NCBI GenBank assembly: GCA_028821605.1
Contig: JAPPFM010000048.1
Location: 1-64,000, forward strand
Source: Candidatus Poribacteria bacterium
GTDB taxonomy: Bacteria; Poribacteria; WGA-4E; WGA-3G
DNA length: 64,000 bases
Direction of reading: 5' to 3'
Shown here: positions 25,529-35,344 of the stretch, piece by piece
Position numbering within the stretch: position 1 is the stretch's first letter
How the letters are laid out: every line of letters starts with the position of its first letter
Made by a program: the position numbers and the translations under genes
The notes under the pieces: model-generated
What the model was told of the DNA's origin: nothing
Databases searched by the model: none
The model's input: only the letters and a program-made list of their open reading frames with translations

Positions 25529-26850
25529 GTGATACCACCCACTACCTATGAGGTAGGGGCTTCGGTTTCGTCGCAACTGCGGTTTTCTCAGAGAGTTCAC
25601 CGTCTTATTATCGCTCCACCAGCAGGCTATTATTCCGTATCAGAACGGCTTTATCGCGCATTACTACGCGGGTACCCCAGCCTGCAAAATGTTTATCGCA
25701 GCGTTTACATCTCTATCGTGATGCGAACCACATTCAGGACATGTCCACTGCCTATCTGAAAGCGTTAGATTTTCGTTGTGATGTCCACAATCCGAACAAG
25801 GCTTTGTCGTAGGGGTCCAGCGACCTGCTTTGACGAGTGTTTTGCCATATTTCGCACATGTCCACTTGAGTATCAAGGCAAACTCACCGAAGGCAATATC
25901 AGAGATTTTGCGTCCCCACAGGCGTTTCATACCTTCAAGATTGAGGGTTTCTATAACAATCTTATCGTATTTTCGCACAAGACGAAGTGCCAATTTGAAG
26001 AACCAATCGCGTCTCTGGTTGGCAATCTTTTTGTGGATACGTGAGAGGCGTCGCTTCGAGCGATACCAGCCATTAGACAAATACTTCTTTCGCGAAAGCA
26101 ACTTGTTTGCCGAACGAACTGCGTTGAGACCTTGCTTGTAGAATTGTGGCGACGCTATCTTGATACCGTCCGAAAGGGTGAGGAATGTTTTACAACCGAA
26201 ATCTACCCCTGCCTCGCTACCGGTCAATGGGAGTTTCTTGGAAGGTTTAGAATCCTCACAAGTGAGATACAAATAGTAGTCGCCTACGTTATCACGCTTG
26301 ATTGTGACCTTTTTGATATGTCCAGCCCACTTACGGTGTTTCCAAAAGGTGAAGGACTTATCAAGACAGTTGATTGTCAACCGATTATCCTCTATTTTAT
26401 ACCCCGCTTGTGTGAAAGTCACAGACTTATATTTATGGGGTGGCTTGATTTTCGGTCTACCCACTTTACGTTTCGTTTCACCTGCTCTACGCGCTTTGAT
26501 ATTATCAAAGAAACGCTGATACCCTAAATCAATGCGAATAGCAACATCTTGGAGCATTTGCGAAGGTAGTTGATTCCAATGCGGTTTCGTCGTCTGCTTC
26601 AACTTCTTTATATGTTTCAGGATACGAGAAAGTGAAGCATACTTACCATAAATACGATAATAACGACGCTGCAAGCGTAGCAAATGCAAATGCACACTAT
26701 GCATATCGTCTATCAGATTGCCAAGCAGGATTATATTCGACTGGTGAGAGAACTCGTATTTGTAGGTTTTCACTATATCGTCAGCTCTTTTTTCTATCAG
26801 GTGCTTCGCCGTCTACATCCCGCAAGCTAAAGCATGGGAATTTGACGGAA
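25529..26850 (-). mobile_element. TnpB-only IS200/IS605-type element
   Basis: On the minus strand a left-end hairpin (26819-26837, CCC...TTTA...GGG type) precedes tnpB. A right-end hairpin (25538-25559; CTACCT/AGGTAG plus CCC/GGG) follows it. The hairpins resemble those of the second element at 31539-31558 and 32942-32963. No tnpA is present, so transposition would need a transposase in trans. The outer limits are approximate. Confidence 0.8.
25664..26773 (-). CDS. tnpB: TnpB, RNA-guided endonuclease (OrfB_IS605)
   Basis: A 369-residue TnpB with an apparently complete RuvC site: first aspartate in AGVDFGCKTFL, glutamate in KIVIETLNLEG, last aspartate in HDRDVNAAINI. The zinc finger is CSDCGHH...CPECG. 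The N-terminal region is shorter and differs from the second TnpB, so the two elements are not recent copies. TnpB cuts DNA guided by an omega RNA from the element's right end; here that would cover about 25530-25700. It lacks the long structured leader of the other copy. Confidence 0.95.
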   Translation of the reverse strand: MKTYKYEFSHQSNIILLGNLIDDMHSVHLHLLRLQRRYYRIYGKYASLSRILKHIKKLKQTTKPHWNQLPSQMLQDVAIRIDLGYQRFFDNIKARRAGETKRKVGRPKIKPPHKYKSVTFTQAGYKIEDNRLTINCLDKSFTFWKHRKWAGHIKKVTIKRDNVGDYYLYLTCEDSKPSKKLPLTGSEAGVDFGCKTFLTLSDGIKIASPQFYKQGLNAVRSANKLLSRKKYLSNGWYRSKRRLSRIHKKIANQRRDWFFKLALRLVRKYDKIVIETLNLEGMKRLWGRKISDIAFGEFALILKWTCAKYGKTLVKAGRWTPTTKPCSDCGHHNENLTLSDRQWTCPECGSHHDRDVNAAINILQAGVPA

Positions 26851-31509: not shown

Positions 31510-31598
31510 AGCCGTTATGAAGGGACTCCCTTAACAATCCCAATGCTTTAGCTTTGGGTCCAACCCCCGTGTCTCGTGCGTTAGAAGCGAAAAAACAT

Positions 31599-31627
31599 TT
31601 GACAAGAGGTGTGTTTTGTGGTATAAT
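31599..31627 (+). promoter_or_regulatory. Perfect-consensus promoter of the tnpB leader
   Basis: TTGACA (31599-31604), a 17-base spacer, TATAAT (31622-31627). All twelve bases match the sigma70 consensus. It lies about 7 bases before the structured leader. Confidence 0.85.
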
Positions 31628-31633
31628 TAATAT

Positions 31634-31719
31634 ATCACGGTGGCAAGCATAATGAGCGTTATCGCAAGGTGACGTGCTTGCCTACCCACTCATTAGGGGT
31701 TAAAGCCGTGAGCCGTGAT
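31634..31719 (+). ncRNA. Structured leader RNA with pseudoknot upstream of tnpB
   Basis: The outer stem pairs ATCACGG (31634-31640) with CCGTGAT (31713-31719). Inside, GGCAAGCA (31642-31649) pairs with TGCTTGCC (31675-31682). CGTTA (31657-31661) pairs with TGACG (31670-31674) over an 8-base loop. The bulge TAATGAG (31650-31656) pairs with CTCATTA (31689-31695), forming a 7-bp pseudoknot. All pairs except one G-U are Watson-Crick. It ends 5 bases before the tnpB start, which has no Shine-Dalgarno. I do not recognise the class. TnpB omega RNAs normally lie at the 3' side, so this is extra. Confidence 0.65.
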
Positions 31720-31724
31720 GTACC

Positions 31725-32879
31725 ATGATAAAGACACATAAAATGGCATTACGCCCGGAGCGCGCGCAGGTATCTTGGTTTTACCAGCAATGCGGTTATG
31801 CGAAGTTTGCCTACAATTCTGCATTGTCTGATTTTAAGGCGGAACTCGCATCGGATAATTTCTTATCTATGTATGATCTAAACAGACGCTTTAACGCGAA
31901 AAAGAAAGCGTTTGATTGGACGAAAGCACAAGATCAACGTGCTGCGATGTATGCTATCCACAACCTCGGTTCTGCTATAGACAACTGGAGGAAAAAGCGG
32001 GCGAAGTTTCCAAGACTGAAAAAACGAGGTTGCAGGCACTCCTATACAACCGATGAGCAATCCGTCCGCATGGAAGGTAAACATATCAAGCTACCCAAAA
32101 TCGGTTGGGTCAAAACGTTTGAGGAATTGCGCTTTAAAGGAAAAATCGTATCCGTTACCATATCAAGAACTGCACATCGTTGGTTTGCGTCTGTATCTGT
32201 AGAACTGCAACCCCCTATCCACCGATGTCCAGCATCATCAGAGTTTGTGGATTGGTTTGCATCTCATACCGATATTGGAACACCAAACCTGATTGAGCGT
32301 TCAATCTACCCCACAATCGGTATAGACGTAGGTATTTCCACATTAGCGACACTTGATGATGGCAGAAAATACGAAAACCCGAAGGCATTAAAGCGTTACG
32401 AGCGAAAACTCAAGCGAGAACAACGCAAGTTAAGTCGAAAGGTGTTCTTGTCTAAAAATTGGTATAAGCAAAAGCGAAAAGTGGAGCGACTCCATTATCG
32501 CATTGCGTGTATCCGTCGCGACGCTCACCATAAAGCAACAACTGAGATTCTCATAGGTGTCAGTAGTGTTGGTATAGAAACGCTACAGATCACGAACCTG
32601 CTAAAGAATAGGAAACTCTCAAAGGTGTTATCAGACGCTGCGCTTGGCGGTTTCCTTGGGAAACTCAAGACGAAAGCCGCGTCCCTGGGTATACCTATTT
32701 TTCAAGCCGATCGGTTCTTTGCCTCAAGTAAAACATGTAGCATGTGCGGACATAAGAAAGACGACTTAACACTTTCGGAGAGACAGTATCATTGTAGCAA
32801 CTGCGGAACGTCTATAGATCGAGATGTTAACGCAGCTATCAATTTAAAAACCCTCGCCGTCGGGCAGACGGAGAGCTAA
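31725..32879 (+). CDS. tnpB: TnpB, RNA-guided endonuclease (OrfB_IS605)
   Basis: A 384-residue TnpB with all RuvC residues visible: aspartate in IGIDVGISTL, glutamate in SVGIETLQI, final aspartate in SIDRDVNAAINL. The zinc finger is CSMCGHK...CSNCG. N-terminal HKMALRPERAQVSWFYQQCG is the typical OrfB start. The omega RNA would span the 3' end of the gene to the right end near 32971, with the guide read from the adjoining helicase sequence. It has no RBS of its own directly before the ATG. Confidence 0.96.
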   Translation: MIKTHKMALRPERAQVSWFYQQCGYAKFAYNSALSDFKAELASDNFLSMYDLNRRFNAKKKAFDWTKAQDQRAAMYAIHNLGSAIDNWRKKRAKFPRLKKRGCRHSYTTDEQSVRMEGKHIKLPKIGWVKTFEELRFKGKIVSVTISRTAHRWFASVSVELQPPIHRCPASSEFVDWFASHTDIGTPNLIERSIYPTIGIDVGISTLATLDDGRKYENPKALKRYERKLKREQRKLSRKVFLSKNWYKQKRKVERLHYRIACIRRDAHHKATTEILIGVSSVGIETLQITNLLKNRKLSKVLSDAALGGFLGKLKTKAASLGIPIFQADRFFASSKTCSMCGHKKDDLTLSERQYHCSNCGTSIDRDVNAAINLKTLAVGQTES

Positions 32880-32926
32880 AACGCTTGTGGAGTTTCTATA
32901 AGTCCTCCATTTGCGGGAGGCACGAA

Positions 32927-35344
32927 ATGGCGAAACAAGAATCCCACGACTTTAGACGTGGGAGTGTCAACGAAACGAATCTTCCGATTACAGAATTGAA
33001 GACAACATTTCAGGATGCGATAGCGGAAGGTCCCGTGGTGATTGTGGCACCAACTGGCAGTGGAAAATCGACACAAGTTCCGCCGTGGTGTGCTGCACTA
33101 TCAGATAAACCGGTGCTTGTTGTTGAACCGAGACGCGTTGCATGCCGTTCGCTCGCACGGTGGGTTGCACAGCAGCGTGGCGAACCCTTAGGGCACTCAG
33201 TTGGCTATACGGTGCGTTTTGAAGATGTCAGTTCCGATGCCTTAACCCGCATCCGTTTTGTCACGCCCGGTGTAGCATTGCGATATGCCGCTGGACCGGA
33301 ATTGGATCAATACGGCACTATCATCTTGGATGAGTTTCATGAGCGCGGTGTAGAGACAGACCTGTTCCTCGCGATATGCCGAAAGAAACGACGCGACGCG
33401 AGACTCGTTATCATGTCCGCCACAATAGCCGCACGACAACTCGCACAATTTGTTGGTGGGCAGGTGCTGCGTGCAGAGGGACGCGTCTATCCTGTCAAAG
33501 TGCGATACCTTGGTGGAGCGGTTGTGCCGACAGCCCATAATTTGGTGGAACGCGTTGAACCGGGGATTAAGCGTGCACTCAAAGAGACGACAGGGAATAT
33601 ATTGGTTTTCCTTCCGGGCAAAGGTGAAATTAACGCATGCCACGACGCGCTTCGTAAAATGCGGAATGTGGAATTTGTTCCGCTCCACGGTGATTTGTCC
33701 GCCGATGCCCAGGACCTCGCATTTGAGGCGCAATCCGAATATCGCCGAATTATCCTCGCAACCAACGTTGCCGAAACATCAATCACACTTCCAGGGATTA
33801 CCGCTGTTTTGGATACTGGATTGGTGCGCCAGCGTGTCCATCAAAGCAGGCGGATTGTCTTGGCGTTACGTCCCATCTCGCAAGCCTCAGCTGAGCAACG
33901 TCGCGGACGTGCAGGTCGCCTCGGTCCGGGAGTCTGCTACAGACTCTGGGAAGAACACGGGCAACTTGAACAGGAAACACCTCCAGAGATTCGTCGGGAG
34001 GATTTGACGCAATTCGTGCTCACTGTTGCCGCAACGGGTTATCGTCCACAGGACTTGACGTTTCTCGATGCACCCCCTGATTTCGCGGTGGAACGCGCAC
34101 AAACCGCATTGAAGCGTTGGGGGGTTCTCTCTGACGATGGCATGCTCACAACAGAGGGTGCCAAGATCTGTGCATTACCCATTGACCCCCTTCACGCCCG
34201 ATTGTTGGTAAAGGCTCCCCTCTCGCTCCGACGCGATCTGGTTGATCTCATTGCGACCTTGGAACGTCCTGCGCCGTTATGGCGACCTATGGTCGGTATG
34301 TCAGCTGAACGACAAGAGGCGGTTCAAAATGCTCGTCAGAAAGACCTTTTTCGTGATGGGTGCGATGCGACAACGGCAATCCGGACGTTGCGCTGCGGCG
34401 ATGCGAAACGGCATCACCTCCATAGAACTGCCCTCGCTGAGTGTCGCAGAATCGCAACGCAGCTCAGGACGTTCTTTCAGTTGCCGTCTGTCATGAAAGA
34501 AAATGCATCACCGCAACCCGACCGCGCGGCACTGATCGCTTATCTCTTACGTGAATGGGAAACTTGCGCTTATGTGCAGAGACGGAAAGGGATGGGATGG
34601 GGAAATGAACAGGGAGAGGTCTTGCTCGATTCCGATTCACTCCTGCCGGAAGGGCAGCACGCCGCTTTGATTTTGGAAACCATTGGCATTGGGAAAGGCA
34701 CGCGCGTTCAATTGATGGGACGCACTGCCATGCCTTGCGCTTTTGCTGACCTCGTTGATGCAGGAATCGGAACTTCTCAGATCACCACACCGAGACTTGA
34801 GGGTGAAGACATCGTCGCGGAGGTAGTGACCGAATATGCGGGAAGAGAGATCGGACGCGAACGGCGACCGCTACATGGCGAATTACTGAGAGAGGCGTTG
34901 GCATCGCTCATTCTCTCTGGATCCGTGTTCCTTGGTGCTGGTGAGCAGCTGACACGGGCGATTCATGCTTGGACCCTGCAGTGCGCGCTACAAACCTCGG
35001 AAATAACAGTGTTGACACCACACGAATGGTTGGTTTCACAGTTGGCTGTGTTGGGTGTGGAGGTCGCCGAGGAATGGAAACTTCTTTCGCCGGAGGATTT
35101 GGTCTTCACAGAAATAGACGCTGACACCATCGCTGAAATTGAGGCACAGTATCCAAAAGAATTTTCTGTCAACGGTGCGAAGTTCAGCGTCGAATACCAT
35201 CCTGCCGAAAAACTTGTCATGTTGCGATGGGAGCGCGGCATTCGTCAACCGACGTTGAGTTCGGTATTACTCCCACGCTGGAACAATTGGAAAGTGCAGC
35301 TTGACCTCCGTGGACAGGTGCGGACAGTGCGTCCCACTTCTTAA
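32927..35344 (+). CDS. HrpB-like ATP-dependent helicase with IS-derived start
   Basis: An 805-residue DExH helicase. Walker A is APTGSGKST, DEFH is the motif II box, MSATIAA is motif III, and QRRGRAGRLGPG is motif VI. The long C-terminal part is HrpB-type (for example RRKGMGWGNEQGEVLLDSDS). Start ATG 32927 has GGGAGG 6 bases upstream, and both lie inside the right end of the TnpB element. The first 15 residues (MAKQESHDFRRGSVN) are encoded by the IS end; the native-like segment begins near NLPITELKTTF. The cellular role of HrpB is not well defined (RNA helicase fold). Confidence 0.92.
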   Translation: MAKQESHDFRRGSVNETNLPITELKTTFQDAIAEGPVVIVAPTGSGKSTQVPPWCAALSDKPVLVVEPRRVACRSLARWVAQQRGEPLGHSVGYTVRFEDVSSDALTRIRFVTPGVALRYAAGPELDQYGTIILDEFHERGVETDLFLAICRKKRRDARLVIMSATIAARQLAQFVGGQVLRAEGRVYPVKVRYLGGAVVPTAHNLVERVEPGIKRALKETTGNILVFLPGKGEINACHDALRKMRNVEFVPLHGDLSADAQDLAFEAQSEYRRIILATNVAETSITLPGITAVLDTGLVRQRVHQSRRIVLALRPISQASAEQRRGRAGRLGPGVCYRLWEEHGQLEQETPPEIRREDLTQFVLTVAATGYRPQDLTFLDAPPDFAVERAQTALKRWGVLSDDGMLTTEGAKICALPIDPLHARLLVKAPLSLRRDLVDLIATLERPAPLWRPMVGMSAERQEAVQNARQKDLFRDGCDATTAIRTLRCGDAKRHHLHRTALAECRRIATQLRTFFQLPSVMKENASPQPDRAALIAYLLREWETCAYVQRRKGMGWGNEQGEVLLDSDSLLPEGQHAALILETIGIGKGTRVQLMGRTAMPCAFADLVDAGIGTSQITTPRLEGEDIVAEVVTEYAGREIGRERRPLHGELLREALASLILSGSVFLGAGEQLTRAIHAWTLQCALQTSEITVLTPHEWLVSQLAVLGVEVAEEWKLLSPEDLVFTEIDADTIAEIEAQYPKEFSVNGAKFSVEYHPAEKLVMLRWERGIRQPTLSSVLLPRWNNWKVQLDLRGQVRTVRPTS

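Follow-up and report, generated by a model that had tools for sequence, protein, structure and literature searches.

A conserved pseudoknotted leader RNA with a duplicated closing strand precedes tnpB and defense genes in Poribacteria

Results

A structured leader lies between promoter and tnpB

The window analyzed here is a 64,000-nt stretch of a Candidatus Poribacteria contig (GenBank assembly GCA_028821605.1, contig JAPPFM010000048.1). Its forward strand carries a single-gene IS200/IS605-type element at about 31516-32975 (ends approximate), which is closely matched from ~31516 to ~32972 by a second genome copy at G000:C1:44.6k. The tnpB gene of this element (31725-32879) encodes 384 aa and matches the Pfam families OrfB_IS605 (1.2e-25) and Cas12f1-like_TNB (3.6e-19). 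It is flanked by an LE hairpin at 31539-31558 and an RE hairpin at 32943-32962, both on the forward strand and with a common loop, CTTTAG. The RE hairpin is of the ordinary IS200/IS605 type, where the TnpB guide RNA is usually found.

Upstream of tnpB is a leader RNA of approximately 95 nt, preceded by a sigma-70-type promoter (31599-31627, forward strand) in which a TTGACA -35 box (31599-31604) and a TATAAT -10 box (31622-31627) are separated by a 17-nt spacer. The leader opens with the 5' strand of its outer stem, P0 (ATCACGG, 31634-31640). P1 follows, with GGCAAGCA (31642-31649) paired to TGCTTGCC (31675-31682), and then a 7-nt bulge, TAATGAG (31650-31656), which forms a pseudoknot with CTCATTA (31689-31695). 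The P3 apical hairpin, CGTTATC-GCAA-GGTGACG (31657-31674), consists of 7 bp between 31657-31663 and 31668-31674. Around the pseudoknot 3' strand, ACCC (31684-31687) pairs with GGGT (31697-31700) to form P4. The 3' strand of P0 occurs twice, as copy 1 (CCGTGA, 31706-31711) and as an alternative partner, copy 2 (CCGTGAT, 31713-31719), which ends 5 nt before the tnpB ATG at 31725.

A first-pass annotation of the window had described the consensus promoter, an outer 7-bp stem, an 8-bp stem (P1), the bulge with its downstream partner, and a tnpB start that lacks a ribosome-binding site and lies 5 nt beyond the structure. All of these are present at the positions that it gave. Its apical stem also exists and covaries, but is 7 bp rather than 5 bp long. 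Copy 1 of P0, P4 and the genes other than tnpB that carry the leader had been missed.

Many TnpB-type leaders from several genomes have a hairpin insert of ~26 nt (about CCCCUUCCCAGUAACGGGUGGGGACCCC) in the P3 apical loop (L105, L108, L110, L149, L164, L166, L170, L178, L188, L191, L194 and L195). The insert resembles a mobile REP-type hairpin at one tolerated site.

A second TnpB is encoded on the reverse strand of the window (25667-26773). Its LE hairpin is present and the leader is absent, as the annotation had remarked, even though the protein is ~80% identical to leader-bearing TnpBs. Elsewhere, short elements with the leader RNA and without tnpB, apparently non-autonomous derivatives, were seen at L180-L182 and L206; at L180, an RE-type hairpin (GCCCACCGCTTTAGCTGTGGG) lies within about 0.3 kb 3' of the leader. 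Local alignment of the leader with the 3' end of its own element scored below the shuffled mean, i.e., there is no sequence similarity between the two.

The leader is widespread in Poribacteria

Homologous leaders upstream of other poribacterial tnpB genes, for which the annotation had proposed a search, were found with both BLASTn and a covariance model, and they covary. BLASTn with the leader region recovered the leader in 55 of 98 relatives. The covariance model R1 identified 23 copies in the window's own genome and ~650 copies (summed over the results table) in 49 of 85 Poribacteria genomes, with up to 47 copies per genome. Another family of the order has divergent members that follow the same plan with a quite different sequence.

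A pattern scan of GTDB genomes returned Poribacteria only among the matches listed. The corresponding scan of IMG/VR returned one viral contig, IMGVR_UViG_3300033059_000057, on which one copy of the RNA precedes a TnpB and another precedes an intron-like endonuclease gene (L083, L084). Model R2 had 0 matches in sets of 291, 4, 1 and 14 genomes of other phyla (one genome being common to sets), a weak negative as the scan carried no positive control. BLASTn of phages and plasmids gave no leader match. In Rfam 15, cmscan of the window region and of 13 member-holding loci (E up to 1, 10 and 5) produced no match over the RNA, and no family reached its gathering cut-off. Our literature search, which took in few subscription journals, found no published report of this RNA.

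Covariation supports the helices and the pseudoknot

Covariation was scored in an alignment of 25 homologs (A1) and in one of 85 distinct TnpB-type leaders (A3). The A1 score was 0.351 compared to 0.145 after shuffling (0/500), and slid partners scored at most 0.073. For A3, the score was 0.582 against 0.183 shuffled (0/500), with slid controls at or below 0.057; 96% of pair cells were paired and 29 of 31 pairs had changed on both sides. Within A3, all seven pseudoknot pairs had changed on both sides, all seven P3 pairs covaried and the P1 helices were paired in 95.7-100% of cells. In P4, 2 of the 3 counted pairs had changed on both sides and 95.7% of cells were paired, and divergent members carry P4 versions such as CCG/CGG, CUC/GAG and AUCC/GGAU. 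A separate alignment of the divergent host-gene branch described below, which included the pseudoknot, scored 0.440 versus 0.162 shuffled (slid controls at most 0.059).

Over the three alignments, covariation thus supports P0, P1, P3, P4 and the pseudoknot. The covariance model used for alignment was pseudoknot-free, so the covariation of the pseudoknot is no effect of fitting. Since covariation lies far beyond the shuffled and slid controls, the leader is, on comparative sequence evidence, a real and conserved pseudoknotted RNA structure. The annotation had named a lack of covarying pairs, or a leader confined to this locus, as grounds for rejecting the structure; covariation proved strong and the copies number in the hundreds.

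Transcripts are expected to begin at P0 and lack a Shine-Dalgarno sequence

The promoter is a general property of TnpB-type leaders. In 127 of 142, no more than 2 of the 12 positions of TTGACA plus TATAAT are mismatched, a level attained by 1 of 142 after shuffling, and in 112 of 142 the -10 box ends 5 nt before P0. This distance agrees with the usual spacing between a -10 box and the transcription start site, so the transcript should begin at P0, with the P0 5' strand forming the very 5' end of the mRNA. A Shine-Dalgarno (SD)-like word precedes 2.9% of leader genes, compared to 40% of 448 long Poribacteria ORFs (background 13%); the bare start of tnpB in the window is thus typical of leader genes.

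The closing strand is duplicated next to the start codon

On the 3' side, the outer-stem strand is repeated in tandem with a period of 6-8 nt, and the one 5' strand can pair with either copy. Both copies covary equally with that strand in A1 and A3. The copy 1 helix is paired in 98.0% of cells (6/6 pairs changed on both sides) and the copy 2 helix in 96.7% (5/6 pairs). By their predicted pairing, the two closing P0 helices are mutually exclusive. Two non-overlapping complementary sites are found in 190 of 271 RNAs, which comprise 51 distinct 5'-strand types, whereas shuffling the 5' strands among RNAs gave a mean of 44.8 and a maximum of 56. Divergent members whose P0 sequence differs, e.g., UUGUCUUUC / GAAAGACAGAAAGACA, also keep the repeat. 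Pairing of copy 2 is weaker in the host-gene branch (70-78% of cells).

Relative to the start codon, copy 1 lies at about -19 to -14 and copy 2 at -12 to -6, which is the SD position; copy 2 is spaced 5 nt from the ATG in 74 of 99 leaders. Pairing potential and covariation together would place one of two exclusive pairings over the ribosome site. In 55/99 leaders, the duplex energies of both registers are at most 1 kcal/mol apart. A nested folding model put copy 1 ahead in 84 of the 99, so the copy 2 state may be rare without help. At least one member, L201, is a natural single-register variant with a single copy of the P0 3' strand, and it has an intact tnpB downstream.

The leader heads tnpB, homing endonuclease and defense genes

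In nearly all cases the leader stands directly 5' of an ORF, on the same strand and at a fixed place. Roughly 150 R1-type copies were examined; approximately nine-tenths of these directly precede tnpB genes of several divergent subfamilies, and in the window's own genome ~16 of 24 TnpB genes carry the leader. The exceptions to the tnpB association led to a second, divergent branch with P0 CCAGTTT and P1 GGGTGGCA/TGCCACCC, which we call the host-gene branch. Its model, R3, has matches in 38 of 40 genomes.

First genes of this branch include those encoding AbiTii (6e-40), a BglII-like restriction enzyme (2.6e-22), TIR_2 (3.6e-18), N6_N4 methylase (1.8e-38), D12 methylase (4.9e-37), FRG (1.1e-15) and ApeA (1.6e-35) proteins. 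PADLOC agrees with these defense genes and adds a type II REase. A GIY-YIG/NUMOD3 (homing) endonuclease gene is also headed by the leader. Among first genes other than tnpB with a length of 200 aa or more, 13 of 18 had PADLOC matches at 1e-8 or better, against at most 14 of 60 background ORFs, which were located near TnpB elements (Fisher p = 2.5e-4 with the upper bound of 14/60); several of the methylases are homologous, so these counts are not fully independent. Lower-scoring single upstream matches at a methyltransferase gene (L142) and a secreted repeat protein gene (L141) were left out of the firm members.

In the window's own genome, a host-gene branch leader (L246) precedes an operon made up of an ORF of 33 aa followed by a type II methylase gene. 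The order of leader, ORF of 29-35 aa and type II DNA methylase gene was seen at L242, L246, L254, L258 and L295, where the short ORF is possibly the leader peptide of a restriction-modification operon. Among L227-L316, the leader also heads two recurrent small proteins: one with signal-peptide, coiled-coil and TM features (MKTILxLxILF..ALPALGELTDADL) at 28 loci, and one of 86 aa (MDILEELKARDERIEKLE) at 11 loci.

Discussion

The leader combines an extreme 5' position, two equal partners for the P0 5' strand, a second partner at the SD site, a missing SD sequence and a fixed distance to the ATG. From these features we infer control of translation initiation by choice of register. On balance we lean toward the view that the leader acts in cis from the 5' terminus and, by register switching, controls the translation of mobile nuclease and defense genes, and consider it somewhat probable. 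The 5' end of the mRNA would be locked in the P0 closing helix over the P1-P3 hairpin, whose 7-nt bulge would kiss the loop of hairpin P4. With the P0 5' strand on copy 1, the start region would be free; with the strand on copy 2, the ribosome would be excluded from the SD position. Folding of the kissing core upon binding of a ligand, protein or ribosome could bias the register, and the choice would set translation of the downstream gene, which is TnpB here and elsewhere a homing endonuclease, restriction-modification or abortive-infection gene. This view presumes exchange between the registers inside the cell, opposite effects of the two, control at the step of translation and the existence of a trigger. 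Weighing against it are the lead of copy 1 in the folding model, the weaker pairing of copy 2 in the host-gene branch and the single-copy member L201 with its intact tnpB. A translational switch had been among the guesses of the first-pass annotation, which had also called a structured RNA 5' of tnpB unexpected for a TnpB RNA; the latter point holds, and the former is the reading favored here.

The main rival to register switching is a constitutive cassette for SD-independent expression and mRNA stability, in which a promoter and a folded 5' end stabilize the message and recruit ribosomes without an SD sequence (IRES-like or as a 5'-end shield); thanks to the duplicated strand, the 5' end would stay base-paired both when a ribosome occupies the start and when none does. 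Such a cassette suits the nearly perfect promoters and their fixed spacing, the 5' end inside a helix, the lack of an SD sequence, the mobile, horizontally spread genes and the preference for copy 1 in silico. By itself, however, it offers no reason for so elaborate a kissing core, and the conserved tandem partners right next to the AUG have a regulatory look; we judge it unlikely, although a serious contender. A strict small-molecule riboswitch, with the P1-P3-pseudoknot-P4 core as aptamer, would be a special case of register switching. The compact pseudoknotted core, the invariant unpaired bases of the TnpB-type branch, the switching strand and the riboswitch-like position fit this reading. 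It is nonetheless rather improbable, given that the genes form no metabolic pathway, some core "invariants" are altered in divergent branches and Rfam has no match.

Readings tied to TnpB or to transposition fare far worse. Autoregulation, in which TnpB would bind the leader as a mimic of its pseudoknotted omega RNA, gains from the tnpB gene downstream of most copies and from the pseudoknots of both RNAs. Copies before restriction, Abi, TIR, ApeA and GIY-YIG genes, together with the dissimilarity of leader and element 3' end, largely refute it, and we hold it very improbable. Those non-TnpB copies also defeat the suggestion of a guide-like RNA, and a promoter inside the element, placed for transcription from the first pair, leaves no flank-derived guide. 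A self-cleaving HDV-like ribozyme shares the strand order P1-P2-P3-P3'-P1'-P2'; this reading fails because of topology and Rfam. P4 does not precede the P2' strand but surrounds it, no catalytic-C junction was seen, the apical loop is a tetraloop rather than an L3 able to form P1.1, and no Rfam ribozyme matched at E up to 10. The annotation was thus right to claim no ribozyme, an assignment we find barely credible. Finally, with the left end of an IS200/IS605 element close by, the leader might be a part of that end which folds as single-stranded DNA recognized by the TnpA transposase. The LE hairpin is separate, the leader also occurs at non-IS genes and it keeps a set position between promoter and AUG, which makes such a transposon end the most far-fetched of the readings.

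One RNA device, present in hundreds of copies in Poribacteria, may place TnpB, homing endonucleases, restriction-modification, AbiTii, TIR and ApeA under a common translational signal, an "immune and mobility regulon" that we propose tentatively and regard as possible but not probable. Selfish DNA nucleases and anti-phage systems in Poribacteria would then sense a common cue at the RNA level. Unchecked expression of the genes concerned endangers the cell, and the data suggest that an uncultured, sponge-associated phylum controls mobile nucleases and phage defense via a single RNA with a duplicated switching strand. This is a large structured RNA family outside Rfam, with covariation about as clear as sequence can give, and the two-state design is compact and directly testable.

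Comparison with known systems sets the leader apart from several RNAs that it resembles in part. TnpB omega RNA (reRNA) is likewise a structured, pseudoknotted RNA associated with tnpB, but it overlaps the 3' end of tnpB and takes its guide from the RE flank, whereas the leader is 5', has no guide and also heads other genes; TnpB genes can thus carry a conserved 5' RNA distinct from omega RNA. The omega RNA of IscB (HEARO, RF02033) is also structured and lies 5' of the gene for a transposon nuclease. It starts with a guide derived from the LE flank, while transcription of the leader is expected to start inside the element at P0, and the Rfam scan gave no HEARO match. HDV-like ribozymes have part of the P1-P2-P3 strand order in common, and differ in their catalytic core and in a P4 between P1' and P2'. 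In the Pistol ribozyme, an internal strand lying between two stacked helices is contacted by a kissing hairpin loop. This topology is no more than a lead: the kissing loop is common to both RNAs, but the leader has a permuted domain order, no unpaired cleavage strand and no Rfam match. The closest likeness is to translational riboswitches and orphan cis-regulatory motifs (Rfam candidates), which also are pseudoknotted 5' leaders directly before a start codon, with covariation and alternative pairing near the ribosome site. The leader differs from these in lacking an Rfam match, in the duplicated closing strand at its extreme 5' end and in genes for mobile nucleases and phage defense rather than metabolism. 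We therefore file it as a new RNA family within a known kind, the structured cis-regulatory leader RNAs, in which its duplicated switching strand and its gene set are unusual.
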